Source: a virus
Virus record (IMG/VR): IMGVR_UViG_3300020131_000006
Span: 1-52,496 of that record
Length of the DNA stretch: 52,496 nt
Reading direction: 5' to 3' (one strand)
Shown here: one piece after another, positions 12,615 through 37,382 of the stretch
How positions within the stretch are numbered: the stretch's first letter is position 1
How the letters are laid out: every line of letters begins with the position of its first letter
The notes under the pieces: generated by a model
Seen by the model: only the letters and a program-made list of their open reading frames with translations
What the model was told of the DNA's origin: nothing
Database searches by the model: none
Made by a program: the position numbers and the translations under genes

Positions 12615-13805
12615 CTAGCTAATTTTCTCAACAAGCACACGAACGGAATATTGCATTGGTGTAGCACCAACAGATGCGTAGTTGCTAGTCACATAGCTAA
12701 GGCTAGAGCCTTGCTGTGCTTGAATAACAATACTTCCAGCAATATGACTGCCTAATTGGTTAGTGGTAGATGTATTAAACATTAAATCACCGACAGCAAC
12801 CCCAGTAGAAGCTTCTGTATAATTAATGGTGACAGATGGAACCACACAAGAGGTAGTAGCTGCTTGAGTTACAACAACAAACGCAGAAACACGATACAGA
12901 GCACTTGAAGTTACTTCATAAAAATTCTGTGCATTTACATTAGCTGTTTGTGCAAGCCGAGCGTCTTCTGCCACATACTTAGGAAGAAGGGCATCAACAT
13001 AATCTTTAGTAACTAGAGACTTTGCATTTGCAGGAGTATACGAAGTACCAGCCAATAGGTCAGTAGCAGAGATAGTAAAGCGAAGGTCCCCAAGGTTAAT
13101 GCCGGTATAGAACCGATGCATAGATAGGGAGTCAGCCGCGATAACTGCATTATAACCCACACCACCTGCTGCTGTACTATCCCAAGAAAGAGTTAGGTTG
13201 CCACTAGCACTCGTAGCAAAGCTCCAATCATTTGCAGAAGGGTCACCAAGAACAAGTTCACTGGTAGTCGCACCCTTAATATTTACAGGGCTGCTGGTAA
13301 ACACATGCGCACCAGACCAAGTATAAGCAGCGGCTTGGTTAATAGCTGGAGCCGCATCTGAACGCATGAATGTAGAGGCCACACCATTAATTACAGCAGG
13401 GCCGGCCAAAGCTGTTGGGTTTGCACCACCAGCCCCGAACTCACCAGTGTCATGCCAATTAGCTAGAGTAGAAGCAGGGTCAGCAGTTAAGTAAAATACA
13501 TGGGGTGGGGTGAAATCTGTACGAATACAAACAGCGGGAGCATTTACAGCAAGAGCCAACATAGCAGCTTGACTGGCAGCTTCACCAACCTCATGCTCTA
13601 ATGGCGGCAATAGGTCTGCTGGAATCTTACCAGTACCGTCAGTGACGACGACACCATCTACACCATTAATAGGATAAGTTTCTGGAGCACCAGCATCATT
13701 AGTGCCATAGATAATATCTGGAGTAGTGGAAGCAGGAACCCCATCACCACCGGCACCTGAAGTAGAAGATATACCAGCTACATCTGGATGGACATTAACT
13801 GACAT
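12615..13805 (-). CDS. tail fibre / tail appendage protein
   Basis: 396 residues, rich in Ala, Thr, Ser and Gly with beta-strand periodicity. IPADLLPPL (about 81-89) and a middle AYTWSGAHVFTSSP segment are typical of phage fibre shaft domains, which recur as LPALTGDVT-like or WSGAHTF-like repeats. It is the last large - strand gene before the lysis genes. The C-terminal ~100 residues are a candidate receptor-binding head. Exact position in the virion is not known. Confidence 0.68.
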   Translation of the reverse strand: MSVNVHPDVAGISSTSGAGGDGVPASTTPDIIYGTNDAGAPETYPINGVDGVVVTDGTGKIPADLLPPLEHEVGEAASQAAMLALAVNAPAVCIRTDFTPPHVFYLTADPASTLANWHDTGEFGAGGANPTALAGPAVINGVASTFMRSDAAPAINQAAAYTWSGAHVFTSSPVNIKGATTSELVLGDPSANDWSFATSASGNLTLSWDSTAAGGVGYNAVIAADSLSMHRFYTGINLGDLRFTISATDLLAGTSYTPANAKSLVTKDYVDALLPKYVAEDARLAQTANVNAQNFYEVTSSALYRVSAFVVVTQAATTSCVVPSVTINYTEASTGVAVGDLMFNTSTTNQLGSHIAGSIVIQAQQGSSLSYVTSNYASVGATPMQYSVRVLVEKIS

Positions 13806-13806
13806 A

Positions 13807-14163
13807 TTAAACTCCCATCGTTACAGTAACTACAGCATCAGTACCAGAGATACCAGAGACAACAGCTCGTACAAATTTCCAAGGGGCGATGGTAGTAAAA
13901 CCATCAGAAGCAGAAGTAGTACCTGTTAGAGTGATAGTTCCCATAGGAGTAGCACACCAATTAATAGGGTCGCCATTTTCATCTACTTGATTAGTAACTT
14001 CAATATCTACAGTAGCACCTACGGCACCTGTACCAGTAACTGTAGCTTGAAAAGTGGAATATGGAGAATCCTTGTAAACACCCTCACCATTCCCATTTGC
14101 AACCACGCCATCTTTACCGAGCAACTGATAGATTCTACCAGAAGCGATTCTCACATTTTGCAT
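13807..14163 (-). CDS. small virion-associated beta protein
   Basis: 118 residues, start at 14163. It has an N-terminal basic beta part (RIASGRIYQLLGKDG) and then Thr/Val/Gly-rich strands, resembling small appendage or fibre-associated phage proteins. It lies between a fibre gene and a holin-like gene. Function unknown. Confidence 0.55.
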   Translation of the reverse strand: MQNVRIASGRIYQLLGKDGVVANGNGEGVYKDSPYSTFQATVTGTGAVGATVDIEVTNQVDENGDPINWCATPMGTITLTGTTSASDGFTTIAPWKFVRAVVSGISGTDAVVTVTMGV

Positions 14164-14172
14164 TTCAATTCC

Positions 14173-14361
14173 TTATTTGGTTAAAGAAGTACTTGAGATT
14201 ACACGCAAGAAAGCATTACCTACAGCAAGTACGACTGTAAGAATACCATAAGTATTTACTGGTAACATTGGTTGCAGCATTGAGAAGGAAGCTTCTAAAG
14301 CTACTAGACCAGTTACCAAAAGATTGAACCATAAAGTTTTAGATTTATACCAAGGTTTCAT
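14173..14361 (-). CDS. holin-like protein (DUF7940 type)
   Basis: 62 residues: MKPWYKSKTLWFNLL at the start, then two hydrophobic segments (about 10-28 and 36-54, GILTVVLAVGNAFLRV). The K-P-W-[YW]-K-S-K-T-L-W-F-N opening is one I know from small phage membrane proteins often labelled holin. It is separated from the lytic-enzyme gene by two fibre genes, so its partner is unclear. Confidence 0.65.
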   Translation of the reverse strand: MKPWYKSKTLWFNLLVTGLVALEASFSMLQPMLPVNTYGILTVVLAVGNAFLRVISSTSLTK

Positions 14362-14363
14362 AA

Positions 14364-15779
14364 TTAGGTCTTAATAATTTTAAGGACGACAGCAGAAGGT
14401 TGTATATTATTATGAGCACCATTCCCACCAGTGTTCTGGTTAGTAGCTGTTGCTGCAATGTTTGTAGCTGTTGTTTCTATATTGGTTGCAGTATTGCTAT
14501 TAACGGTGGCGGCGTGTCCGGCTGCTGCGCCGCTGGTATTGCCTCTAGTGGGGTACCCACCGACGGCGGAGGTTGAGATTGTCGTAACCGTTACCGCGTG
14601 CGCATGAGCATTTTGAGTATGGTTATGACTATTTTGGATATGGTTATGACTGTTTTGAATATGGGTATGTGTAGGCATCTCAGAAATAACTAAGGTGTGT
14701 GTTTCATCACCCCCAACATTACCAACAGCATTACCTAACTCAGCAGTGCCAGTACCTCCAGAACCTACAGCAACTCTACGTCTAAAGTCAGGAACATTGA
14801 ATGTAGTAGAACCATCACCAACACCCCAAGTAGTACCAATAGCAGTGAACAAGGCAGCGTAGGTAGTTCTATCTACAGCAGAACCATCACATAATAGATA
14901 GCCAGTTGGGGCAGATGTTCCAGCAAAATCAAACATCACACCAGAGGGAACAGAACCACCTCCGCCACCATCACAGCATTCGCCTGTTGGGGTTCCAGTA
15001 CTGAACCAAGGAAGCCAACCATCAGCTCCCCCAATCTTAACCTTAATCCACTTTTGAGGACTAATTACCGCTGGAGCATTGCCTGAGGTAAAGGTAGCAG
15101 CATCGGCGCCAGTCTCATCGAGTCCATTTATCTCCAGTTCACCATTACCCCCACCTGAATATGGGTTGAAATTAAAAATCGTCGTTAAATTAGTCGAGTA
15201 ATTCATCTCGACATTACCGTGACTATTTACGAAGTATCCCTGTACGTTATGAACGTCATTGGTCGGGTCATTCTCTATTTGGAATATGAATTCAGTACGC
15301 TCACCTGTTGTTTGGTCCTGAGCGAATAAATTAATAGCTCCATAACGGCTGGTGTTACTGGCCCCGCAAAATACTTCGGCAAAGGTATTTAGATTATTCG
15401 CTCCGTAGCCCAAGAACATAGCGGAGTCAGCTCCACTACTGTAAGCAGAGGACATTAGCTGATGGTAGTGGAAAGTACTGGTTGGATTTGTTATATTGGA
15501 ACTGTAGTCAGATGTTACTGTGTCCACCCCTGTAGTACTAGACGTGAAAACTTGGGATGCTTCTAATCCAGAATCAAGGGGTGCCTTAATGGTAACAGTA
15601 ATTGGATTGTCTTCAAAGGCAACTGCCCCTGTAAATGTAGGGCTATCCGATAAGACTACGTTTTCTGTTCCGGTGGACGTGGTTGTACCAGTACCCCCAT
15701 TTAGAACAGGAACAGTATCTCCAGTGGCAAACTGTTCAACAGTTCCTGATTCTATTTTCAAAGGTTTCTTATCAGCCAT
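14364..15779 (-). CDS. tail fibre with phage tail-collar domain
   Basis: 471 residues. The N-terminal half is beta-rich fibre sequence. After a Gly-rich stretch (about 270-275) comes a phage tail-collar domain: GTSAPTGYLLCDGSAVDRTT, then FNVPDFRRRVAVG. A His-rich segment of repeats (THTHIQNSHNHIQNSHNH, about 373-390) resembles metal-binding His clusters of short tail fibres. The end reads NNIQPSAVVLKIIKT, a common collar-domain terminus. It is probably a trimeric receptor-binding fibre. Confidence 0.8.
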   Translation of the reverse strand: MADKKPLKIESGTVEQFATGDTVPVLNGGTGTTTSTGTENVVLSDSPTFTGAVAFEDNPITVTIKAPLDSGLEASQVFTSSTTGVDTVTSDYSSNITNPTSTFHYHQLMSSAYSSGADSAMFLGYGANNLNTFAEVFCGASNTSRYGAINLFAQDQTTGERTEFIFQIENDPTNDVHNVQGYFVNSHGNVEMNYSTNLTTIFNFNPYSGGGNGELEINGLDETGADAATFTSGNAPAVISPQKWIKVKIGGADGWLPWFSTGTPTGECCDGGGGGSVPSGVMFDFAGTSAPTGYLLCDGSAVDRTTYAALFTAIGTTWGVGDGSTTFNVPDFRRRVAVGSGGTGTAELGNAVGNVGGDETHTLVISEMPTHTHIQNSHNHIQNSHNHTQNAHAHAVTVTTISTSAVGGYPTRGNTSGAAAGHAATVNSNTATNIETTATNIAATATNQNTGGNGAHNNIQPSAVVLKIIKT

Positions 15780-15781
15780 TA

Positions 15782-16300
15782 TTAAGCCAAGACGATGGGT
15801 TGATTAATTTCCGCATTCACAGAGTTAGGAGAGCCGGTGGCAACACACACACCAATACGCTGAACTACATTACCAGCAGCAGATGGAGCTGTATTAGTAG
15901 CTACTCCAGCCGTAGTGGACAGAAATACAATACCACCAGTGAGAGTACCAGCAGCTTGAGTATTAGTACCTTCAAAATATATAGTGGCTAATGCTGGAGA
16001 AGTAACCCCTGCCAAAACGAAGCCGTGAGCTTCTTTGCCAGCAGTAGTGGCATCTGCCTTACGCACCTTTACAGTACCAGCATCATTCCAAATGTTTACA
16101 AAATCACCGGCAGCTAGATTCTCACTAGACGCAACCTCAGCCGTATCTGCACCAATACCTACAGGCATTACAGATTCATCTAAACGACCTGTAGAGTCCA
16201 GAGCTACAATCTCACCAGCATCACCAGCTCCAGCAGAAACTACAGTAGCTTCTTTCTCAGTCAGAGTACCGTTCAAATTACGAATAAATTTATCAGCCAT
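15782..16300 (-). CDS. tail fibre-associated protein, paralogue of 16309 gene
   Basis: 172 residues, Ala/Thr/Val-rich beta protein. Its C-terminal ~100 residues share layout with the next gene upstream: an NLA start, a GITTGAAAM/GVTSPALAT-like middle, a [IV]FL-[GS]-T strand and the identical last five residues PIVLA. Such domains cap phage fibres. The N-terminus (MADKFIRNLNGTLTEKEA) may attach to a partner. Function inferred from context. Confidence 0.6.
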   Translation of the reverse strand: MADKFIRNLNGTLTEKEATVVSAGAGDAGEIVALDSTGRLDESVMPVGIGADTAEVASSENLAAGDFVNIWNDAGTVKVRKADATTAGKEAHGFVLAGVTSPALATIYFEGTNTQAAGTLTGGIVFLSTTAGVATNTAPSAAGNVVQRIGVCVATGSPNSVNAEINQPIVLA

Positions 16301-16308
16301 TTGTTATC

Positions 16309-16884
16309 CTATGCTAAAACTATTGGGTTATTAAATCTTAAAAATATCTTTGTTGCAGTTATTGGAAAACCAATAATTAGTGAGAATGCCGGGGCACTCG
16401 GTTGTGTTTGAGTAAGCAGTCCATTTGTACCTAAGAAGATAGGTTGCCCTAACGTCCAAGTCCAAGAGGGTTCTGTGTACTCTCCCTCTGTTTGAATCTC
16501 TACATTAGCTCCCATTGCAGCAGCTCCAGTAGTGATACCAAGAACAGTATTGACAATTGCTAGATTTGTATTGTCAGCATATTGAGCAGTATTAGCATTA
16601 TCTATGTAAACTACTCTATCACCACCTAATGCCGCACCAGCAACATGAGTATATGTTCGTTGAGGAATGTCAGCACTAACTAGGTGTCTGAAACTTGCAG
16701 TACCCGGACTCCCATCAGGAGGACCGGCAAACACTTCATTAGCATCAACAGTGGGAAGAATAATTTGGTCCCAGTCCGCCGAGAATCCGGTGGCAAGGTA
16801 CTGAGCCATCTTGTATAGCCAGTCCTTGTATGCCGGACTATTTGTATCATTGGTTGGTGGCGGTGGTGGTGCATTAAACGCCAT
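16309..16884 (-). CDS. tail fibre-associated protein
   Basis: 191 residues. The N-terminus has a proline run (APPPPPTND) and an aromatic helix (YKDWLYKMAQYL). The C-terminal ~100 residues are a beta domain related to that of the 15782 gene and end in the same PIVLA. The start overlaps the end of the large ejection-protein gene. Probably part of the tail tip. Function unknown. Confidence 0.6.
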   Translation of the reverse strand: MAFNAPPPPPTNDTNSPAYKDWLYKMAQYLATGFSADWDQIILPTVDANEVFAGPPDGSPGTASFRHLVSADIPQRTYTHVAGAALGGDRVVYIDNANTAQYADNTNLAIVNTVLGITTGAAAMGANVEIQTEGEYTEPSWTWTLGQPIFLGTNGLLTQTQPSAPAFSLIIGFPITATKIFLRFNNPIVLA

Positions 16885-19800
16885 TATTCATCTCCACGGA
16901 TTTGTTTGTAGAACAACTCCCTATTATATTCCTCAGCCCCACCTAGATTCCAAGAGTAGAGCATACGACCCACAACTGGGAAGTAGTTCAGAGACTTGTA
17001 GGTAGGGTCTTCAGCAAGAGCATCTTTAAACAATTGGTCAAACATCTTATAAGGTGGTAAGGCCACATCACCAATTGCTTCTCCAATGGCTCCACGTTTT
17101 ATTTTATTTCCAGCATACTCAGACCAACCAAAGGTCTTAAGAATGTTTAGAGGAATATCATCTAACTCTGGATCAACATCCCGACCTAACAACCAGTCTT
17201 TGATATATTGTGTAGTAGCACCAGCAATACCCATAGTAGCAGCATACTTCGTGATGTTACCTAGGGCAGTACGAACATTACCCTTCTGAAGTTCATTGTA
17301 GAAATCATTACGGACAACATCCATTTGCTTCAGCATAAATGACTTTAGCATATAGACAATACGACCATTAGGCATATCCAAATACTTCTGAGGAAGCTCC
17401 AACTTAGTAATTGGCTGCATCTTAGAAAGCTTTGAGAATAACATGGTTTGTACTGTGTCAGTAAGTTCTCCCCTCTGCAAATCTTCTAACAGTTGTGGGA
17501 ATTCCTCACCAAAGCGTGGCTCCCATTCCCTACGAAGATTCTCAATACCCTTTGGTGTCTTAGCATCAGCTAGAGCACGATTTAGAGTACCATTCAAAAC
17601 AGTATTCTTACCGAGTCTGTCAATAGCAGAGAAGCCAGAGTATTTAAATACAGAGTTCAATAAACGAGAAGTGGTTGAGGTAGATACAAACTCTTCTGAG
17701 ATATGATCTAACAAACCAAAGTCTTTCATATTGACCTTGGAGATACCACCAGCCATTTGGATAGCCGCCATTAAGGTTGGACGTAAGCCATTTAGATAAA
17801 CAGACATAGCAACGTCACCTAACTGAGTTCCCGCGGAGATGAAGTTACCCAACAAACCTAAGTTAGCTACGTCCTTAACACCCTGCACAATAGAGTTAGA
17901 ACTACGATTGCCGGGACCAAAACGGGAACGCAGCATACTCTCAAGTTCAGATGCTTGATCTCCCTTAATCTTACCTCTCTTCAGTTCTTCTAAAACTACA
18001 TTACCAATAGATTGATCTATGTTAACTTTACCAGTCTCAGGGTCACGAATAGCTTCACGACCAAAGAACTTAGAGGTTTCAATTTCTTGAACAGCATTAC
18101 GTAAGTATGTATGCAAAGCCTCAGCAGGTGTAGCGTAGAACTGATGGAATTCCTCTGGCACTTCATTCAACACACGGGTCTTTGAGAAGCCCGGCTTGTA
18201 GGAAGGGTTCGCTGTATTACGAAAGTACTGATTGATTATCTTAGTTCTAGCTTCATCGGTGAATGGTTCTCCACGACCAATGAATTTCCGTTCAGCTTCT
18301 AACAAACGAGTTTCAAGAGCATTTCTACTCTCTGCACCAAGAACCTTCTTCAAACCATCAATATCAGTTACAATACGTGGAAAGTAGTCTTGACGCATAT
18401 CCCCAAGACGACCAGCCTTTTGTAACTCAACACCAGTCTCTTTTAGAACTTGACGAACTCTGTCAAAGCCAGTAATATTATATTCTTTGGCTAATGCAGT
18501 AATCGCTGGAATATCATTGTTAATCAGGGCTGTGTTAAAACGAGCTTGAGCTTCTTTGTCAAGCTTCCCGATTCCTAGAATAAAGTCATCAACTTCACCA
18601 ATCTTCTTATGGGTATTCTTTAAGATGCCTTCCTCGAACTTAATTGCTCGATGAAGGACATTTTGAGAAATGTTACCGATACGGGTAGATAGAACACCTA
18701 AGCCCTTATCTAAACCCTTAGCCAGTTTACTATTTCCAAAATCAGAAGGTTGTTTTAACTTAGATTGGAAAGTATCGTAAACTCTATCAGCTACTTCAGG
18801 ACGGTTGACATACTCTGGATACTTCTCGGCAAAAGCACCACGGAAGTCCTCTTTGGACATACTACGGATACGCTTCTCCAAGGAAGGTGGGGTTTTCTTA
18901 CCACCACCAAAACCTACAGCACCACCTTGACCAAAGCCTTTTTTACCAGTACCACCAAGAGGAGCCTTCGAACGAAGGAAATCTTGATTGATTAGATACT
19001 GACTACGATTAGTTAAAGCTGTATCATTAAAACCTGAGTTATTCTCAATGATAGTAAGCTTACCATCCTTAGAACGTTGGACGATAGCCTTACCCTTTTG
19101 TGCTCTCTTGTCAACACGATCTGCTGTCTTTAGAGGTATGAGCTGATTGGTATTTGGATCAACTTCCCACATACTGATACCAGCAGCATTCTGTTGTGCT
19201 AGACGATTGATAGCCTCAACACTGGCGGCTGATTCACCTGATGCATTATTAGTAGTTGAAGTTCCTTCATCAGTCTTATTGAAAAGCTTCATAAAAGCTT
19301 CTTCAAAGACCTTAGGATCAACTGATCCACCTTGTCCGAACTTACCTTTATTGGGACTCGTGCGGGAACGGTCATGCGGAAATAAGGACTCTTGTAGAAT
19401 CTCAGTTCCTTTGGTTTGGGTCACATCTGTTGGAATTCTTTGGACGTGTTCAATCCCCTGCTCTGGAGTAGCATGATCTTTATAGTTCACACGTTCCATA
19501 TCAGTTAATGGTAGTTCTCCTTGCTGAGTACGCAGAGTAGCAGGGTCAACAATCTCCCACTCAAGAGGGCCAGTATCCTTGACAGGCTCTGCCTTCTTAG
19601 GCATTGACTCTAATTCCATACCTTCGGTCTTAGAATGAATCTCTGCCCATTGCTGAGGATTCAAACCTTCAGCCATAGGATCAATAATCTTCACATCTCC
19701 CACAGGCGCAGAAGCTGCCGCAGGGGTATCAGCAACAGCCTCTTCCTTACGGATTTCGTGGACAAGATCATCAATAGTTTGATTGGCTTTACCATCATAC

Positions 19801-20315
19801 TTCATACCAGCCCGGATACCAGCACCCTCAATTGCCAATCCAGCAATGTCAAAGAGTTGCTTCGCCGCGGCACCAGCTTCGTCAGAACCAGTAGCAGAAG
19901 ATACAGCATTAGCACCAGACTCTACTGCCTCACCAAGCTTGCCAAACATTTCAGAGACAACACCACTCTCATGAGGTTTAAAGCCTGTAGCTGTTTCAAT
20001 AGGAGCATTGAGGAACTTACCAATTCCTTCGCTAGACCAATTCTCTGCAATCTCATTAGCTTTAGCTAGGGGATTCTCTTCATTCCTTAACAGGTTGAGT
20101 ATGGAAGACCATTGGGCGACACTAACCTTAGCTGCCTGTCCGGGCAGACTCAAGATCATATCAGCAGCTTGCATGAAGTCAGAGCCAGCAGCCTTTGCTG
20201 ACTCAGCCCAATTCCCCTTAGTCTTAGAGACAGCAGGAGTTTCTTCCTTAGCAGCGAAAGGGTCAACAATGCTAGGCGCTTCAGCTTGTTGCTTAAAAGG
20301 GTCTATGATAGCCAT
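16884..20315 (-). CDS. large internal virion / DNA ejection protein
   Basis: 1143 residues, the longest gene in the window. The N-terminus repeats an [IV]DPF motif (IIDPFKQQ, IVDPFAAK). A disordered, Pro/Thr/Gln-rich region (about 190-480) contains two FGQGG motifs and a glycine-rich patch. The C-terminal ~650 residues are mainly helical with some membrane-compatible stretches (VANLGLLGNFISAGTQLGD). Position after the tail genes and next to two further helical proteins matches ejection proteins of podoviruses that cross the envelope with the DNA. No transglycosylase motif was recognised, so any enzymatic role is open. Confidence 0.7.
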   Translation of the reverse strand: MAIIDPFKQQAEAPSIVDPFAAKEETPAVSKTKGNWAESAKAAGSDFMQAADMILSLPGQAAKVSVAQWSSILNLLRNEENPLAKANEIAENWSSEGIGKFLNAPIETATGFKPHESGVVSEMFGKLGEAVESGANAVSSATGSDEAGAAAKQLFDIAGLAIEGAGIRAGMKYDGKANQTIDDLVHEIRKEEAVADTPAAASAPVGDVKIIDPMAEGLNPQQWAEIHSKTEGMELESMPKKAEPVKDTGPLEWEIVDPATLRTQQGELPLTDMERVNYKDHATPEQGIEHVQRIPTDVTQTKGTEILQESLFPHDRSRTSPNKGKFGQGGSVDPKVFEEAFMKLFNKTDEGTSTTNNASGESAASVEAINRLAQQNAAGISMWEVDPNTNQLIPLKTADRVDKRAQKGKAIVQRSKDGKLTIIENNSGFNDTALTNRSQYLINQDFLRSKAPLGGTGKKGFGQGGAVGFGGGKKTPPSLEKRIRSMSKEDFRGAFAEKYPEYVNRPEVADRVYDTFQSKLKQPSDFGNSKLAKGLDKGLGVLSTRIGNISQNVLHRAIKFEEGILKNTHKKIGEVDDFILGIGKLDKEAQARFNTALINNDIPAITALAKEYNITGFDRVRQVLKETGVELQKAGRLGDMRQDYFPRIVTDIDGLKKVLGAESRNALETRLLEAERKFIGRGEPFTDEARTKIINQYFRNTANPSYKPGFSKTRVLNEVPEEFHQFYATPAEALHTYLRNAVQEIETSKFFGREAIRDPETGKVNIDQSIGNVVLEELKRGKIKGDQASELESMLRSRFGPGNRSSNSIVQGVKDVANLGLLGNFISAGTQLGDVAMSVYLNGLRPTLMAAIQMAGGISKVNMKDFGLLDHISEEFVSTSTTSRLLNSVFKYSGFSAIDRLGKNTVLNGTLNRALADAKTPKGIENLRREWEPRFGEEFPQLLEDLQRGELTDTVQTMLFSKLSKMQPITKLELPQKYLDMPNGRIVYMLKSFMLKQMDVVRNDFYNELQKGNVRTALGNITKYAATMGIAGATTQYIKDWLLGRDVDPELDDIPLNILKTFGWSEYAGNKIKRGAIGEAIGDVALPPYKMFDQLFKDALAEDPTYKSLNYFPVVGRMLYSWNLGGAEEYNRELFYKQIRGDE

Positions 20316-22097: not shown

Positions 22098-23432
22098 TTA
22101 GTTTGTTCCTTCTAAGAAAGATGGTTCTAATGCCTCTAATCTAAGAGGACAAGTATCATGATGACGTATTTCATAAGCTCTACGTCTTGCTCGTCCCATA
22201 CGAGACAACATACTCTTATCTCTATTCAAATCAACAGCGCGGTACTTAGACCAATTCTGGTAGTCGTCGTCGGTGTATCTTAAGTAAGCGAAAGACTCTA
22301 CCTTATCTCCAACAATTTCAATCTGAGAAGTGAATTTCTCTTTGGTACTTCCTGCATCAAACTTAAATGTTCGAATTAGAACATCAATGGGATTGCCATT
22401 ATCCGCGTACGTACCATTATCAATCATAAAGATGTAACCTGTGGTGCTGTCTTGAACGAAGTCAATGTTGTCACCAGAGGTATAGGAAGCTATAGCGAAA
22501 GGCTCTTTATCATAGCCAAACAGAGTACCAAGAACAGTTGCAGTACCGGGATTATCTAGCAAAGCATAGCTAAAGGTATTAGCATCAATGTACGAAATGG
22601 TATGAGAACCATTATATTGTTGTGGAGTACAGCCAGTAATAACTACTCTATCACCATCAGCAAAACCATGATTGGTAAGAGTTACAGTTACAGAACGATT
22701 ACTCCAAACAAGACCGCCAATGTTCTGAGAGTCTTGTGGGATGCAAACAGACCACGTGGCAAATTGCTGTGTGGTTACATCGTAGACTAGAGTAATACCT
22801 ACTGTACCTAAGTAAAGAACATAGAACACATGACCAGAAATACGAATACAGAAGGCAGTAACATTCTGCATATCATCTTTATTCAGTATACGATCAATGA
22901 ATGGGTTAGACAGATACTCAGGATTAGTCCCCACAAACCTATAAATACCACGACCCTTCTGTTTAGTAACACCAACAAAGAACATAGAGTTATCTGTTTG
23001 TGCTACTGTTCCTGCTGCCGCACAACCAACCTCAACTAGGGCACTGTCGTAAGGAAGCAAAGGACTTCCTGCTGCTGGAGGATTTGGATTGGAGTAGAAG
23101 AACTCAGTTGCGTAAGCCCCCATGGAAACCAAGAGGTTCAACTGACGGCCTAAATAAACACCATCATCAGGTTCCGCATGAGACTGAATTACATTAAGAG
23201 CTGACCAAGTAAGAGGGTCATTAATCTCAGAACCGAAGACAGTACCATTAGAGTTCATAACATAGTAGGTACCATCCATATACTGTATGCCCGGAACTGT
23301 GTTCGCAGGATAGTCTGGGTCAGTAATTTGTGTTACAGTAGTTCCATCGAAGTAGTACGCAGCAGTCTCAGACTTATAAACAAAGCCAACACCAGATACT
23401 GGAGATTCTTGTATGAATTCGAATGTAGCCAT
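22098..23432 (-). CDS. P22 gp10-like tail protein, main C-terminal part of a split gene
   Basis: 444 residues. Family landmarks: TQITDPDYPANTVPG (about 34-48), DGTYYVM (53-59), NDPLTWSALN (71-80), EPDDGVYLGRQLN (about 87-99), ATEFFYS (108-114) and a C-terminal LRLEALEPS strand. The family normally starts about 100 residues earlier, with an N-terminal arm containing a KRPG motif. That arm is encoded separately at 25140-25445. Three genes lie between. A beta insert (about 239-303, VTLTNHGFADGDRVVITG) is a known add-on of phage tail proteins. The product should close the tail and hold the DNA. Confidence 0.82.
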   Translation of the reverse strand: MATFEFIQESPVSGVGFVYKSETAAYYFDGTTVTQITDPDYPANTVPGIQYMDGTYYVMNSNGTVFGSEINDPLTWSALNVIQSHAEPDDGVYLGRQLNLLVSMGAYATEFFYSNPNPPAAGSPLLPYDSALVEVGCAAAGTVAQTDNSMFFVGVTKQKGRGIYRFVGTNPEYLSNPFIDRILNKDDMQNVTAFCIRISGHVFYVLYLGTVGITLVYDVTTQQFATWSVCIPQDSQNIGGLVWSNRSVTVTLTNHGFADGDRVVITGCTPQQYNGSHTISYIDANTFSYALLDNPGTATVLGTLFGYDKEPFAIASYTSGDNIDFVQDSTTGYIFMIDNGTYADNGNPIDVLIRTFKFDAGSTKEKFTSQIEIVGDKVESFAYLRYTDDDYQNWSKYRAVDLNRDKSMLSRMGRARRRAYEIRHHDTCPLRLEALEPSFLEGTN

Positions 23433-23435
23433 TAG

Positions 23436-24374
23436 TTATCCAATTACCCCGCTGAGAGAGCCTATGTTAGTTAAATCTCCGAAAGCATTTGTTTGCTCAT
23501 CATGAAACTCTAAAATATTTAGAGGGGATTTGTATGAGAAAAGACCGAGGAAAGTAGTCCCTTTCATAAGTTTAATTCTACTAAATGTTTCGGTGTTTAG
23601 GTATCCGGCTGTATATGTATCATTTATTTGATTAGAGTAAATATCACTTAAAACAATGAAGCCACCTTCTCTATCACCCGGTTGCCCAGTTCCAAATCCA
23701 AAGTCAGCATTAGGAAAGATAAAACCACTTTGATCTACTCCTCTAGCTACTATGGTGGCATTAGCTCCATCTACCCCATACTCAGAGTCTGGGTAGAATG
23801 CGTAAAAGACTCTGCTGCCCGGGCTTCCGGATTGGACAGGAACAGGAACAGAGTACCCACTGATAGTGCCTGTGAAGAATACTTCTGGCTCCTCTGGTAG
23901 AATCTCTGTACTGAAAACAACATTTGCCATTTCTCCGTTAACGGCTTGTCTATAAAATTCTAAACTTTCAAAATTATCTAAGGTGATAACAGAGGGATTA
24001 GCTAAAATTAAGTCACCATTTAAATAACTGTTATTCTGTAGTGGGGTTACTGACAGTTTAAAGTGAATGTTATAGTTAGATACAGGAACTTCAACAGTGT
24101 ACCCAGTGGAAATTCCGATACCAAGTGAAACTATTCCATTTCCTATAGAAAGAGTAAAGTTTTGAGTTCTAGAAGTAATATAAAGAAACTGCTCCTCATG
24201 CTCTGGAACAAACCCAACTATATCGAATTCAAAAATAAGTTCTTCTGAGGTCACAGCCTCAACTACTCCAGACACTTCAGCCGTACCCATAGTCTCTCCA
24301 GCCATATCAGCGTAAAGCTGGTAGGTGAATTGGTCAGAGTCTATTACATTAACAATATCGTATTTTTTAGCCAT
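23436..24374 (-). CDS. tail-region protein with shared KKYDIV module, copy C
   Basis: 312 residues. Residues 1-40 are the shared module: KKYDIVNVIDSD, FTYQLY (16-21), then GTAEVSGVVE. The remaining ~270 residues are beta-rich with a jelly-roll-like flavour (VFFTGTISGYSVPVPVQSG, FGFGTGQPGDREG) and no family I recognise. It lies inside the split tail gene, between the two parts of the gp10-like protein. The shared start suggests docking to a common virion site with a variable outer domain. Role is inference. Confidence 0.62.
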   Translation of the reverse strand: MAKKYDIVNVIDSDQFTYQLYADMAGETMGTAEVSGVVEAVTSEELIFEFDIVGFVPEHEEQFLYITSRTQNFTLSIGNGIVSLGIGISTGYTVEVPVSNYNIHFKLSVTPLQNNSYLNGDLILANPSVITLDNFESLEFYRQAVNGEMANVVFSTEILPEEPEVFFTGTISGYSVPVPVQSGSPGSRVFYAFYPDSEYGVDGANATIVARGVDQSGFIFPNADFGFGTGQPGDREGGFIVLSDIYSNQINDTYTAGYLNTETFSRIKLMKGTTFLGLFSYKSPLNILEFHDEQTNAFGDLTNIGSLSGVIG

Positions 24375-24724
24375 TAAGAGAACTTAATTGTCTGTCCGGG
24401 TTTTAGTGGAAGAAGACCTTCTTGAAAGTCAGTGTAAAATATAATGTTACGATATGTAAAAGCTTCAGTAGAAGGTAGGGAAAGTGTTACTACATTACCC
24501 ACGACATTCGTTACACTAGTTCCAGAACGAAGACCATTAGCGTAGACATATAAACCAATCGAAATTCCAGAGCCAGAATTTACTGTTAGGGAAGTGGAAG
24601 CGTCAGCTATGGTTCCAATCCTAGAGATTGCTGGTGGTGGTATAATCTCAAACTGAGTATATTGTTCCCTATTAAAGATGTTATCTGAAATAGTAACTAA
24701 TTGTAGTTCTTCATCTGTAGGCAT
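24374..24724 (-). CDS. beta-rich virion protein inserted in split tail gene
   Basis: 116 residues, start at 24724. The middle (SLTVNSGSGISIGLYVYANG and SVTNVVGNVVTLSL) looks like an immunoglobulin-like or beta-sandwich repeat common in phage structural proteins. The start overlaps the stop of the 24724-25140 gene and the stop overlaps the next start. Function unknown. Confidence 0.58.
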   Translation of the reverse strand: MPTDEELQLVTISDNIFNREQYTQFEIIPPPAISRIGTIADASTSLTVNSGSGISIGLYVYANGLRSGTSVTNVVGNVVTLSLPSTEAFTYRNIIFYTDFQEGLLPLKPGQTIKFS

Positions 24725-25140
24725 TATTCCTCCAGTACTTCAAGAGAACTCACTGGGATGCGTGGGATTAGGGAAATGTCAATCTCTACAGGACCATCAG
24801 TAATCTCAGCGAAATATAGAAGAGTGCCTGCACCAGTAGCGGCTGTACCTATACCAAAATAGGTTACTTCAACTGCTGGTTCTGCTTCACATTGTGGGAA
24901 CTCAATCTCCGCGGTATTGCTAATGGAGTTAGCATTGACAGTGAAGCCACCACTATTTCTAGTAACAGCTACGCGCTCATATCCTTCGTAATCCACTTCA
25001 TTAGTGGTTTGATCTCCAGCCACAGTTGGAGTATCTGTATGCAAAGAGATATATAGATTGGTATTAGCATTCCAAGGAAGTGCTGTCCCATTAAAAAGAA
25101 GGGTAACTAACTGCGTCCCAAACACTACGGTTTTTGGCAT
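24724..25140 (-). CDS. phage structural protein, common tail-associated family
   Basis: 138 residues. LYISLHTDTPT (about 28-38), TTNEVDYEGYERVAVTR (about 43-60), IEFPQC and TYFGIGTAATGAGTLLY are the landmarks of a family recurring next to tail-fibre genes of many phages. Here it lies between the two parts of the gp10-like tail gene. Coupled to both neighbours by single-base overlaps. Role in the virion is not established. Confidence 0.62.
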   Translation of the reverse strand: MPKTVVFGTQLVTLLFNGTALPWNANTNLYISLHTDTPTVAGDQTTNEVDYEGYERVAVTRNSGGFTVNANSISNTAEIEFPQCEAEPAVEVTYFGIGTAATGAGTLLYFAEITDGPVEIDISLIPRIPVSSLEVLEE

Positions 25141-25445
25141 TATATATAATCCTCATTACTGATAACTACACTCTGAGCACCAAACATATTTCCGCTAGGG
25201 ATGAAGCCACCTAAGATGCCGGGGTTAGTTGTGACGTACCAGACGGTACCATTGTGATAAAAGATACCTCGATTGAGTCCTGTGGTAACACCATCAGAAC
25301 CCATTACAAAGCCGGGCCTCTTAACTGCAAAAATAGCCCCATAGGGATTCTTCTCAACAAAGGCATTCTGTAACAAAGCATCTTTGTCTAGGTTAGCATC
25401 ACGAGGCTCTGTTGGGACACCAAGCTCTAAACGTTTTCTTTCCAA
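25140..25445 (-). CDS. P22 gp10-like tail protein, N-terminal part of a split gene
   Basis: 101 residues: MERKRLELGVPTEPRDANL, then NAFVEKNPYGAIF and VKRPGF (41-46). In the phage proteins I recall, this region is joined directly to the segment starting at 23432 (FEFIQESPVSGVGF). Here it stops after SVVISNEDYI and three genes intervene before the rest. It either assembles with the larger part or the original gene was interrupted and then refitted. Frame and reading are clean, with no sign of decay. Confidence 0.75.
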   Translation of the reverse strand: MERKRLELGVPTEPRDANLDKDALLQNAFVEKNPYGAIFAVKRPGFVMGSDGVTTGLNRGIFYHNGTVWYVTTNPGILGGFIPSGNMFGAQSVVISNEDYI

Positions 25446-26438
25446 TTAAGTATCCCTCTTTTTATACACAGATATTAAAGTCTCTTCTCCAGAAGGAAGA
25501 CCGAGAACATAAATGCTTCCATTGATGTACCCCATCACTCCAGAAGTTATCAGTGGCATTTCTTCAGGGGTCAGGATATGTTCTATAGGAGCTGAAGCAC
25601 CATCTGGAATTTCCAGTAAAACATTGGTATTGTTAGTTCTTCCAAAAATGTAATTAGTTGTGCCTATTTTAGTTTTGAATTGTCCAAAGACAGAACCACC
25701 AGAGCTAGTCCAATAGAGACTCCAGTTAGTCCCATCAGAAGTCTTCCAAATGTCACCACCATTTGCTCCGAAAACTCTCATAACATATAAGTTATTAGTA
25801 TCCTCGAACCAAATACCGGAATTACCTACTGTCGGCAGCCCTACAGTTTCGTGCCAATCCCCACTCTTAGTTGTCCAGTCCATTCTCCACATGTCATTAG
25901 TAAATGAATCATTTGGAAGTGTGTACATGTAATTATTAAAAACTACATGTTCTCTAGAATCAAACCAGTCAGGAGCATTTCCAGATACACGACTCCAAGT
26001 AGTATAGGGAGTACTAGTTTGACACCACTCGAAGTCACCAATATCTAAACTTGTAAAAGCATATAGGACAGACTCGTACTCATATGGAAATATCCCATAA
26101 TAAAGATAAGCAGTAGCGGGATAAGAGCCTGCTTCCCCCGCATTAATAGGAGTACCATTATCTAAATCAGACAAAGACCAAAGAGTAACAGTTCCATTGG
26201 GGTCTGTATCTATAAAGGTACCAATATATGCCGTATCTTCTGTATAATAATAGATTCCTATAAGATTTTCAGCCCCCAAATCAAACTGGTTAACTAGGTC
26301 AAAGATATTGGGGTCTTCGGCTTCTACAGTTCCACTAACCTCTACTGTACCTGTAGTAGTACCAGCCATATCCACATACAACTGATACGTAAACTGGTTA
26401 GGTTCTAGGAAGTTAACAATGTCATACTTTTTTACCAT
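25446..26438 (-). CDS. tail-region protein with shared KKYDIV module, copy B
   Basis: 330 residues. Residues 1-41 are the shared module (KKYDIVNFLEPNQ, FTYQLY 16-21, GTTTGTVEVSGTVE). The rest is aromatic-rich with repeated W, Y and NN turns, for example VVFNNYMYTLPNDSF and WFEDTNNLYVM, suggesting a beta-propeller or kelch-like fold that could bind surfaces. It lies between the gp4-like and the gp10-like N-terminal genes and overlaps the gp4-like stop by a few bases. A host-recognition or decoration role is plausible. Confidence 0.62.
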   Translation of the reverse strand: MVKKYDIVNFLEPNQFTYQLYVDMAGTTTGTVEVSGTVEAEDPNIFDLVNQFDLGAENLIGIYYYTEDTAYIGTFIDTDPNGTVTLWSLSDLDNGTPINAGEAGSYPATAYLYYGIFPYEYESVLYAFTSLDIGDFEWCQTSTPYTTWSRVSGNAPDWFDSREHVVFNNYMYTLPNDSFTNDMWRMDWTTKSGDWHETVGLPTVGNSGIWFEDTNNLYVMRVFGANGGDIWKTSDGTNWSLYWTSSGGSVFGQFKTKIGTTNYIFGRTNNTNVLLEIPDGASAPIEHILTPEEMPLITSGVMGYINGSIYVLGLPSGEETLISVYKKRDT

Positions 26439-27376
26439 TGGGTACGAATAGTTCCACGGTGATCTGGAGTAAAGAATACACCAGCTTCTTCTTGAGAGAA
26501 GTCCATGCAGTCATTCAGATACATTTCTGCTCTAGCTTGAATACGCATAATTTTATTCTCAGCAACTTCATACTCTTCACTCAACTCATTAGCCAAGTTC
26601 CACTTGAGAGCTTGGAACCATTCTTGGGGGAAGTCGAAGTTCTGAGTGCCTTCAGACATATCTTGGAACTGACGTTGTACGGTAATGTAGATAACAGAAC
26701 CATCTGCTGCCGGTACGTTATAGACATACATTAAACCATTGATTAACTGAGTGTCGTAGTAGTATTGAGTAGGGACACCAGCAGAGGATTTATTACCAAG
26801 GATGTTGTATTCTTGTTGGGATATAGCAAACAGAGTAGTGTCAAAGTTCTCTGTGTTTCTGATGTAACCATCAATGATACGTAGAGGTCTGGACATAGTA
26901 AGTCCTGCCACTATAGCAGTACCAGCAGCATTGGTACCCCCACCACTGAATGTTACAGTAGGTGCTGAGGTATATGAGTTACCACCATTTGTAATAGTTA
27001 CAGATTGGATAACACCACCAGATGCTGTATATGTACCAGTAGCACCAAGACCACCACCAGTAAAGGTAACAGTGCCGGAATTTGGATAGCCAGTTCCGCC
27101 ATTGGTAATATCTACTCGATAAATGTAACCAGCAGTAGGACCTATAGGATAGACACCTAAACCACTAAGCATAGGAACAGCAATACGTTCATATACCCAT
27201 AGAGGGAAACCCTTCTTAACCCAACTCTTAAGCATGATATTTAGAGCTTCAGAGCAATTAGCATAATCCTCTGTCTCTGCGGTTTGACCTGAGCCGATAA
27301 CAGTCAAGAGTCTTAAGGCAGCATCAATAATCTCATCGCGTGTTACGGTAAATGAATATGTTCCTGAAGTTGCCAT
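26432..27376 (-). CDS. P22 gp4-like head-tail completion protein with beta insert
   Basis: 314 residues. The N-terminus (SGTYSFTVTRDEIIDAALRL, about 4-23), NIMLKSWVKKGFPLW (46-60) and the later PTQYYYD and FPQEWFQALKWNLANELS match the gp4-like adaptor that closes the portal. Between about 86 and 160 is an insert of two similar beta repeats (ITNGGTGYPNSGTVTFTGGG, then ITNGGNSYTSAPTVTFSGGG) often added to phage tail proteins. The gene lies upstream of the gp10-like parts in transcription, the usual order. Confidence 0.75.
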   Translation of the reverse strand: MATSGTYSFTVTRDEIIDAALRLLTVIGSGQTAETEDYANCSEALNIMLKSWVKKGFPLWVYERIAVPMLSGLGVYPIGPTAGYIYRVDITNGGTGYPNSGTVTFTGGGLGATGTYTASGGVIQSVTITNGGNSYTSAPTVTFSGGGTNAAGTAIVAGLTMSRPLRIIDGYIRNTENFDTTLFAISQQEYNILGNKSSAGVPTQYYYDTQLINGLMYVYNVPAADGSVIYITVQRQFQDMSEGTQNFDFPQEWFQALKWNLANELSEEYEVAENKIMRIQARAEMYLNDCMDFSQEEAGVFFTPDHRGTIRTQW

Positions 27377-27377
27377 A

Positions 27378-28235
27378 TTAGCCTATTGTAATATTTGTAA
27401 GTGTGTTTGGTGCAGATGGGCTACTTAAAAGTAAAGTAAGTGTGCCGGAAAGAACATTAGCTGTATTAGCTATCTCAACTCCATTCCTAAAGAAATAGAT
27501 AGTTGTTCCATTCTGACTTGCTTGGAACTCACCTTCTGGACTTAATGTTTGGGTTAGATCATAAGCTATGGCACCAGCTAAAACTAAGGCTGTTCTTACT
27601 GCTGTGGTCGTGAGTATGAAAGCTACGTAATTTGAGAAGTTTGGACCTATGTATATTGCAGTAGTTGCTGTTGGAAGTCCTGTGGATGTAAATGTTGCAA
27701 TATTGTCAAGTTCTGGAACAGGAGCTTCTGCTACAATATAATTGGTTTTAGTTTCAGTATCAGAACCACCGGGACCTGTTACAGTTAGAGAGACTGTATA
27801 CTCACCAGCTTCTATGTATTCGTGAGTAGGATTCTCTAAGGTGCTTTCTGACTCATCACCAAAGTTCCACAAATAACTTGAGATTGACCCGGTACTTTCG
27901 TTGGTGAAAGTTACTGTAAATGGAACTGTATCTCCCAAAGGATTTCCAGAGAAAGCCGCTACTGGAGGTTCTCCTACTGGTGCTGTAGGGTCCCAAGGTT
28001 CTAGAGACTGAGCCCCCGAAGTAAACTCATCAGGAGCTTCTGGTCTTGATAGAACTGGTCTGGAATCATCTAGAACTCCACGAACAAAGTCCTGCGGTTG
28101 TCTAGGTTCCCAACATCTTTTGCATGTCCAAATACCGTCCCACTGTTTTGCTAACTGATGGGCCTTATACTTTTTGCCACACATATCACAGATGACATTA
28201 TTGGACCCATCTAAATAATAATCTGCTCTGCCCAT
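27378..28235 (-). CDS. zinc-finger protein with PKD domain
   Basis: 285 residues. The N-terminal ~52 residues are a zinc motif (CDMC 16-19, CKRC 38-41) followed by EPRQPQDFVRG, which I know from proteins encoded among head/tail genes of phages. Residues about 90-169 form a PKD domain (PVAAFSGNP, WNFGDE 123-128, THEYIEAGEYTVSLTV). A further beta region ends the protein. PKD domains bind carbohydrates or proteins on surfaces, so a virion-surface role is likely. Confidence 0.75.
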   Translation of the reverse strand: MGRADYYLDGSNNVICDMCGKKYKAHQLAKQWDGIWTCKRCWEPRQPQDFVRGVLDDSRPVLSRPEAPDEFTSGAQSLEPWDPTAPVGEPPVAAFSGNPLGDTVPFTVTFTNESTGSISSYLWNFGDESESTLENPTHEYIEAGEYTVSLTVTGPGGSDTETKTNYIVAEAPVPELDNIATFTSTGLPTATTAIYIGPNFSNYVAFILTTTAVRTALVLAGAIAYDLTQTLSPEGEFQASQNGTTIYFFRNGVEIANTANVLSGTLTLLLSSPSAPNTLTNITIG

Positions 28236-28243
28236 TTAAGTTC

Positions 28244-28786
28244 CTAAGACGTATATTGAAGATTTGTAACAAATACTTGTTCAGGATTAGATTCAAAAGC
28301 ATCCAAGGGTGATACTGGCACAGTAACTGTGTTATTAGAGCTTGTTATTGAACAAACGACAACACCATCTTGTGATAGAGTGTAGGTATTTCCTATCTTT
28401 TCAACTAAGATATTTCTAGTCCCATATGCCGAAACACCAGTATCTATAATGAAAGAATCCTCATCTTCAATAATACCATTAATAAATCTGCGAAGTCTTA
28501 ATTGGCTATTTACCGTTGCTCCTCTAGTAGTCTGAAAGTAGGCTTCTAAGTAATTAGAAGAAGCATAACCATCATAATACTCCCTAATCCAAGCAGCTCT
28601 AACAGAACCTCCTGCGGTAACATTTGAGGTAATTGTATATGAGAAATTTCTAAACTCCAATGGAGGGGAATCAACTACTCCAGTGACTTCGGATGTTCCA
28701 GTGGTAGTTCCTGACATATCGGTATAGAGTTGGTACGTAAAAGCATCAGAATCTATCACACTGACTATGTCATATTTCTTAGCCAC
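28244..28786 (-). CDS. tail-region protein with shared KKYDIV module, copy A
   Basis: 180 residues. Residues 1-40 carry the module (KKYDIVSVIDSD, FTYQLY 16-21, GTTTGTSEVTGVVD). The remaining ~140 residues resemble a concanavalin/laminin-G-like sandwich (RNFSYTITSNVTAGGSVRAA, then TYTLSQDGVVVCSITSS). Its start overlaps the HNH stop by one base. It is the smallest of the three module proteins. Function unknown; carbohydrate binding is a guess from the fold pattern. Confidence 0.62.
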   Translation of the reverse strand: MAKKYDIVSVIDSDAFTYQLYTDMSGTTTGTSEVTGVVDSPPLEFRNFSYTITSNVTAGGSVRAAWIREYYDGYASSNYLEAYFQTTRGATVNSQLRLRRFINGIIEDEDSFIIDTGVSAYGTRNILVEKIGNTYTLSQDGVVVCSITSSNNTVTVPVSPLDAFESNPEQVFVTNLQYTS

Positions 28787-37057: not shown

Positions 37058-37143
37058 TGGTGGAAGCTGATGGAGTCGAACCACCTAGGAACTAGCCTGC
37101 TTGTGGGTTACAGCCACACCCCTTACCGTTCGGGCAAGCTTCC
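37058..37143 (-). tRNA. tRNA-Tyr(GUA)
   Basis: Read on the - strand. Acceptor GGAAGCT pairs perfectly with AGCTTCC. The anticodon loop CTGTAAC gives GUA, and a long variable arm is present, as expected for class II tRNA-Tyr. The T-loop is TTCGACT, and a 3' CCA is encoded. 86 bases. Confidence 0.92.
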
Positions 37144-37148
37144 TTAAT

Positions 37149-37222
37149 TGGCGATGTGTAAGGGAATTGAACCCTTGCGACCTCTTAGACAGAGAGGGAT
37201 GCTACCTCTACATCAACACATC
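37149..37222 (-). tRNA. tRNA-Asp(GUC)
   Basis: Acceptor GATGTGT pairs perfectly with ACACATC. The loop CTGTCTA gives anticodon GUC. The T-loop is TTCAATT, the discriminator base is G as usual for Asp, and CCA is encoded. 74 bases, 5 bases from tRNA-Tyr. Confidence 0.92.
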
Positions 37223-37226
37223 AGAA

Positions 37227-37303
37227 TGGTCCCCATCGGTAGATTCGAACTACCACTGTACGGTTTCTAAGACCGCTATCTCTGCCAATTGGATTACATG
37301 GGG
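37227..37303 (-). tRNA. tRNA with anticodon UAG (Leu-type), short variable loop
   Basis: Acceptor CCCCATG pairs with GATGGGG for six of seven bases, with a G-G mismatch at 7:66. The stem GCGGT/ACCGT holds loop CTTAGAA, so the anticodon is UAG and would read CUA (Leu). The variable loop is only ACAGT (5 bases), whereas bacterial tRNA-Leu has a long variable arm. T-loop TTCGAAT; CCA encoded. Identity by charging is therefore uncertain. Confidence 0.8.
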
Positions 37304-37305
37304 AA

Positions 37306-37382
37306 TGGTCTAGAAGGTAGGACTTGAACCTACGACCCCGAGCTTCCAAAGCTCTCACTCTACCAAACTGAGCTACTCCTAG
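37306..37382 (-). tRNA. tRNA-Pro(UGG)
   Basis: Acceptor CTAGGAG pairs with CTTCTAG (one G-U). The loop TTTGGAA gives UGG. The D-arm (GCTC with GAGT) and T-loop TTCAAGT are normal, and CCA is encoded. It is the first gene of the leftward transcript, just behind the promoter. Confidence 0.92.

Follow-up and report, generated by a model that had tools for sequence, protein, structure and literature searches.

Analysis of the IMG/VR virus record IMGVR_UViG_3300020131_000006, an uncultured short-tailed phage, showed that three minus-strand genes of its neck and tail cluster, here named MOD1, MOD2 and MOD3, encode proteins that begin with the same module of about 40 residues and continue into mutually unrelated sequence. 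The whole record of 52,496 bases was analysed and is referred to as the window. Probably (at roughly 60%) the module is a docking segment peculiar to this lineage, carried by three tail-neck proteins of a P22/GP4-type podophage. The C-terminal parts of these proteins would point outward and probably bind glycans on the host surface. The three proteins have the properties of tail proteins sharing an N-terminal anchor, namely the same N-terminus, different C-terminal parts, a place in the tail cluster, and conservation at the protein level.

The first-pass annotation had placed the same N-terminal module on these three open reading frames (ORFs), and this was confirmed. Residues 1-40 were common to all three proteins, identity to copy 3 was 71-73%, and 23 of 41 alignment columns were invariant. 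N-terminal BLASTP among the related loci gave expectation values (E) of 5e-18, 1e-17 and 3e-14 for the three pairs; the sharing is not due to chance. A hidden Markov model (HMM) of the module found exactly three copies in the record, and beyond residue 40 or so no similarity was recognisable among the three proteins. The annotated motifs KKYDIV (K3-V8) and FTYQLY (F16-Y21) were invariant in all copies, while the third, annotated as containing GT..GT, had to be rewritten as G26-x-T28-x-G30-T31-x-E33-V34-x-G36-x-V38, copy 3 reading GETMGT. Three module-like strands (residues 4-12, 15-21/24 and 27-38) were present in the AlphaFold models of both MOD1 and MOD2, a low-confidence prediction that the module consists of three beta-strands.

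At the DNA level, the module starts lie in real direct repeats of 118 nucleotides (nt) with 67-71% identity. Over codons 1-41, pairwise identity was 68-80% for first, 80-88% for second and 37% for third codon positions, the synonymous distance between copies was saturated, and DNA identity was no higher than background immediately before the start codon and fell back to that level beyond about codon 40. This contrast between second and third positions, together with the saturated synonymous sites, shows that the repeats represent conserved protein and not recent recombination tracts; recent exchange by recombination at the repeats was unsupported. Judged by codon position, the three copies diverged long ago and purifying selection acts on the protein segment. 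A recently repeated DNA element (a recombination or regulatory tag) translated by accident would account for the repeats, but is very improbable since the identity spans the start codon to about codon 40, and a function at the DNA level was rejected because the codon-position pattern contradicts it.

The minus-strand gene order was portal, capsid, two ORFs of 69 and 85 amino acids (aa), MOD1, Zn-ribbon, adaptor, MOD2, gp10-N, gp80-like, a 116-aa ORF, MOD3 and gp10-C (Table 1). MOD1 ended 9 nt upstream of the Zn-ribbon gene, MOD2 lay between the head-tail adaptor and gp10-N, and MOD3 lay downstream of the gp80-like gene and 3 nt before gp10-C; each of the three ORFs overlapped its upstream gene by a few bases. 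The annotated interleaving with conserved tail genes (adaptor, gp10-N and gp10-C, gp80-like) was therefore borne out, as was the position of MOD3 inside the split gp10-like gene, the two pieces of which are separated by three genes.

Related loci (206, designated by L numbers) were collected by scans with the gp10, adaptor and capsid proteins. Gene order was conserved across them, and the neck region is, on sequence, that of a GP4/P22-type podophage; the capsid proteins of the nearest relatives, L007 and L132, were 73-74% identical to that of the window. The N- and C-parts of gp10 were separate ORFs in 20 loci (window included) and fused in 98 (118 scored). Whole genes inside the split were found in the window only, where the gap measured 1708 bp, versus at most 147 bp in the other split loci. 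Twelve loci encoded a pair of gp10-N proteins; as a rule one of the pair is short, and the other carries an additional domain and lies directly before gp10-C (the order is reversed in L140). MOD3 occupies the slot of this second gp10-N-anchored protein. In the clade as a whole the gp10-like gene is often split after about 100 N-terminal codons; splits or duplications besides that of the window were seen in L001, L002, L006, L010-L012, L015, L016, L028, L029, L046-L049, L132 and L140.

A family of about 103 aa resembling gp77, the fibre-tail adaptor of phage GP4, was present in the cluster of 61 loci, directly upstream of the Zn-ribbon gene in 59 of them, and two members tested matched the Pfam family Gp77 'Podophage GP4 fiber-tail adaptor' at 30.7 and 31.2 bits (cut-off 27). 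MOD1 stands in this slot, directly upstream of the Zn-ribbon gene. In BcepMigl, Mae-JY04 and L140 the gp80-like gene was followed within a few genes by gp77, and in the window by the 116-aa ORF and then MOD3. This second slot is not universal, because two other gp80-carrying records (L218 and L219) had no gp77 downstream.

Searches with the module and with the whole proteins produced no relative in Pfam, PHROGs, PDB, annotated phage records, IMG/VR or GTDB representative genomes, and the module was not detected in 208 other loci (209 with the window) nor in 46 whole records; short-peptide searches reach close relatives only. Module copy 1 matched phrog_33965 weakly (E 0.04). When the second half of the module was sought with a degenerate DNA pattern, the sole match, in L212, was antisense to a Zn-ribbon-like ORF and was discarded as chance. 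The module joined to other C-terminal partners, which the first-pass annotation proposed to look for in related phages, was found neither in IMG/VR and GTDB nor in the related loci. The module sequence and its arrangement are new.

The C-terminal parts had been labelled sandwich-, propeller- and jelly-roll-like. Their mutual unrelatedness held, but the labels are not established: PDB sequence searches with MOD1-3 gave no convincing relative, and no sequence relatives of MOD2 and MOD3 were found in the searches. Fold names were not adopted for MOD1 and MOD2 because AlphaFold, run with three-row alignments, returned a predicted local distance difference test (pLDDT) score of 48 for MOD1 and 37 for MOD2. 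Foldseek with the MOD1 model gave weak concanavalin-like matches (glucanases, CBM66, galectins; best E 0.018), the propeller label of MOD2 came solely from kelch-like motifs read by eye, and the jelly-roll label of MOD3 found no sequence support. Homology of the MOD2 C-terminal part to the gp10-N-linked domains of L006 and L007 was tested and was unsupported.

Table 1. Positions of the module copies, the genes that carry them and the surrounding neck-region genes in the window
Feature	Position	Strand
N-terminal module copy 1 (MOD1 residues 1-41)	28664..28786	-
N-terminal module copy 2 (MOD2 residues 1-41)	26316..26438	-
N-terminal module copy 3 (MOD3 residues 1-41)	24252..24374	-
MOD1, 180 aa, GTG start; module + ~139 aa, beta-rich, possibly concanavalin/lectin-like	28244..28786	-
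MOD2, 330 aa; module + ~289 aa, kelch/propeller-like by eye only	25446..26438	-
MOD3, 312 aa; module + ~271 aa, fold not assigned	23436..24374	-
Capsid	30288-29377	-
Zn-ribbon neck-region protein, 285 aa, with fused PKD domain (PF18911, E 1e-19) and C-terminal extension	27378..28235	-
SU10-type head-tail adaptor (PF24175, just at cut-off), insert at ~residues 81-160	26432..27376	-
gp10-N, N-terminal piece of P22 gp10-like nozzle/stabilisation protein, 101 aa, TTG start	25140..25445	-
GP4 gp80-like fibre I subunit, 138 aa (PF23140, E 1.4e-19; PDB 8jou chain a, E 1.9e-5)	24724..25140	-
ORF of 116 aa between gp80-like gene and MOD3; weak partial matches to virion structural proteins	24374..24724	-
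gp10-C, rest of gp10-like protein, 444 aa (phrog_578, head closure Hc3, E 4e-33)	22098..23432	-

Several neighbouring genes had features of their own. The Zn-ribbon protein, which is extended in the window, was a stand-alone protein of mostly 73-138 aa in relatives. The insert of the head-tail adaptor contained glycine-rich repeats resembling parts of many virion structural and baseplate proteins, and was present in L007 and absent from L006. Further along, the window encodes a 1143-aa protein (16884-20315) with no PHROG match, perhaps an ejection protein by its position, and downstream of it a second set of tail-fibre-like genes (12615-16884). Four tRNA genes (Tyr, Asp, Leu and Pro; 37058-37382) were located upstream of the terminase-region genes.

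Shared anchors of comparable design were found in other phages. The N-terminal ~102 residues of the 'putative tail fiber protein' of PDB entry 8jov (18 chains), which we take to be GP4 fibre III, matched the fibres of relatives (E 1.7e-20). This segment was present on two different fibres in each of five loci (L150, L154, L167, L205 and L210); Burkholderia phage BcepMigl has it on three fibres in a row whose C-terminal parts differ (gp60-62; L217, 6274-9506). The GP4 fibre III N-terminus (8jov chain 1, residues 1-102, LFxNNAxTxL) thus resembles the module in placing one N-terminal segment on several proteins, but it is longer (~102 against ~40 residues), has another sequence, and does not share the dispersal of the KKYDIV copies among neck genes; a profile of the LFxNNAxTxL type iterated on the loci had no member in the window. 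The gp10-N-anchored second proteins (EBPR podovirus 1 gp30/gp31, L010, L015, L132 and others) are alike in their slot before gp10-C and in combining a shared N-terminus with a differing extra domain, whereas their anchor is the gp10 N-terminal piece with a KRPG motif, for which no KKYDIV similarity was found.

Two described systems offer a likeness by description or architecture. In the Schitoviridae phage DEV, the adaptor is ringed by a collar of 15 copies of the gp53 N-terminal barrel (residues 1-91), 'like in the podophage GP4' (PMC10925440); the symmetry of the GP4 neck ring is taken here from the citation in that paper. In DEV, as in the proposed docking, attachment of a surface protein to the podophage tail neck relies on a short N-terminal module, although there the module is a 91-residue barrel on one long fibre in a 15-copy ring. 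The Klebsiella phage receptor-binding proteins likewise combine conserved N-terminal attachment with variable C-terminal function, but are depolymerases of other phages; modular N-terminal anchors of receptor-binding proteins are generally accepted (PMC8262889). Because of the fibre III N-terminus, the DEV collar and the modular receptor-binding proteins, the principle of a shared anchor is already known; the novelty lies in this module and its arrangement.

In the proposed arrangement, the short beta-rich module would plug each protein into one repeated neck site, most likely the ring encircling the head-tail adaptor or the gp10 nozzle. The unrelated C-terminal parts (139, 289 and 271 residues) would project outward and probably bind host-surface glycans, and the anchor may have taken over roles that in relatives are given to the gp77-like fibre-tail adaptor and the gp10-N-anchored proteins. 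The docking tag proposed by the first-pass annotation is thus kept in part: the conserved segment on three neck-cluster proteins and the analogous anchors in relatives agree with it, and exchange across phages was not seen, the module having been found in no second phage searched. Some results weigh against docking. Separate tail-fibre genes lie downstream (for example 15779-14364, Phage Tail Collar domain, PF07484, E 2e-21), so MOD1-3 need not be the main receptor binders. The module is without a relative of known function, and the MOD1 and MOD2 models were too poor to show a separate domain. Alignment of the module to the gp77-like family with hhalign gave a probability of about 2%, and the profiles PF23148, phrog_4137 and alignment A5 had no match in the window at E<=10.

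These last two results also count against an alternative we consider unlikely, in which the module goes back to the N-terminal half of a gp77-like immunoglobulin (Ig) domain that diverged and was triplicated, with its C-terminal halves replaced, so that the proteins themselves would build the adaptor ring. GP4 gp77 (PF23148, PDB 8jou chain D) is comparable in gene position, MOD1 and MOD3 standing in the gp77-like slots before the Zn-ribbon gene and after gp80, and the start-anchored pattern M...[YF]...QFT[YF]....GET of its relatives may be shared by the module. Start-anchored scoring with the gp77-like family ranked MOD3 first, MOD1 8th and MOD2 44th of 6573 N-termini, and shuffled sequences reached the gp77-family scores in 0.005% (MOD3), 0.5% (MOD1) and 0.5% (MOD2) of cases. 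The module HMM in turn ranked gp77-like members 1st, 2nd, 4th, 10th and 11th of 4876 N-termini, members that are related, so that these counts are not independent. A gp77 was not recognised in the window although gp80 is present, but none was evident in the nearest relatives L006, L007 and L132 either. Profiles with canonical gp77 sequences did not favour the module (ranks 236-395 of 6573), and only the first ~40 of ~100 gp77 residues could correspond to it. GP4 gp77 and its relatives are complete, stand-alone Ig-like proteins of ~93-103 aa, whereas the module has no counterpart of the second half and the window proteins share ~40 residues followed by unrelated sequence. Membership of the gp77 family is not claimed, because of the low hhalign probability, the blank family profiles and the unfavourable canonical profiles; from the start-anchored similarity, a gp77-like role or descent of the module is possible. 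A further, improbable version would make the module a remnant of such an adaptor and the neck collar a mixed ring of three paralogues, each with a fused surface-binding domain, in place of a uniform ring with separate fibres; if true, one podophage ring would display three different heads around the neck.

Docking on the capsid surface as head decoration, and not at the tail neck, is also doubtful. The position of MOD1 between capsid and tail genes, where L132 and L110 encode proteins of 247-263 aa that look lectin-like by eye, points in this direction, but MOD2 and MOD3 are embedded among the adaptor, gp10 and gp80 genes, and those proteins of the relatives are without a detectable module. 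Even less probable is a targeting sequence or cleaved propeptide, such as a tag for capsid targeting or assembly, that the mature virion lacks. Capsid-targeting sequences are, like the module, short, N-terminal, conserved and independent of context; no prohead protease was identified, however, and the alternating, beta-like pattern is more in keeping with a folded interface.

The docking segment favoured here suggests that GP4/P22-type necks have a few interchangeable plugs, namely the gp10 N-terminus, the fibre III N-terminus and this 40-residue segment. Through such plugs one virion could carry several different surface domains, some of them encoded within a split nozzle gene. Should docking be demonstrated, the module would stand out as an unusually short example of such an anchor, and its equivalence to gp77 in gene slot would allow ideas on how the neck collar evolved to be tested.

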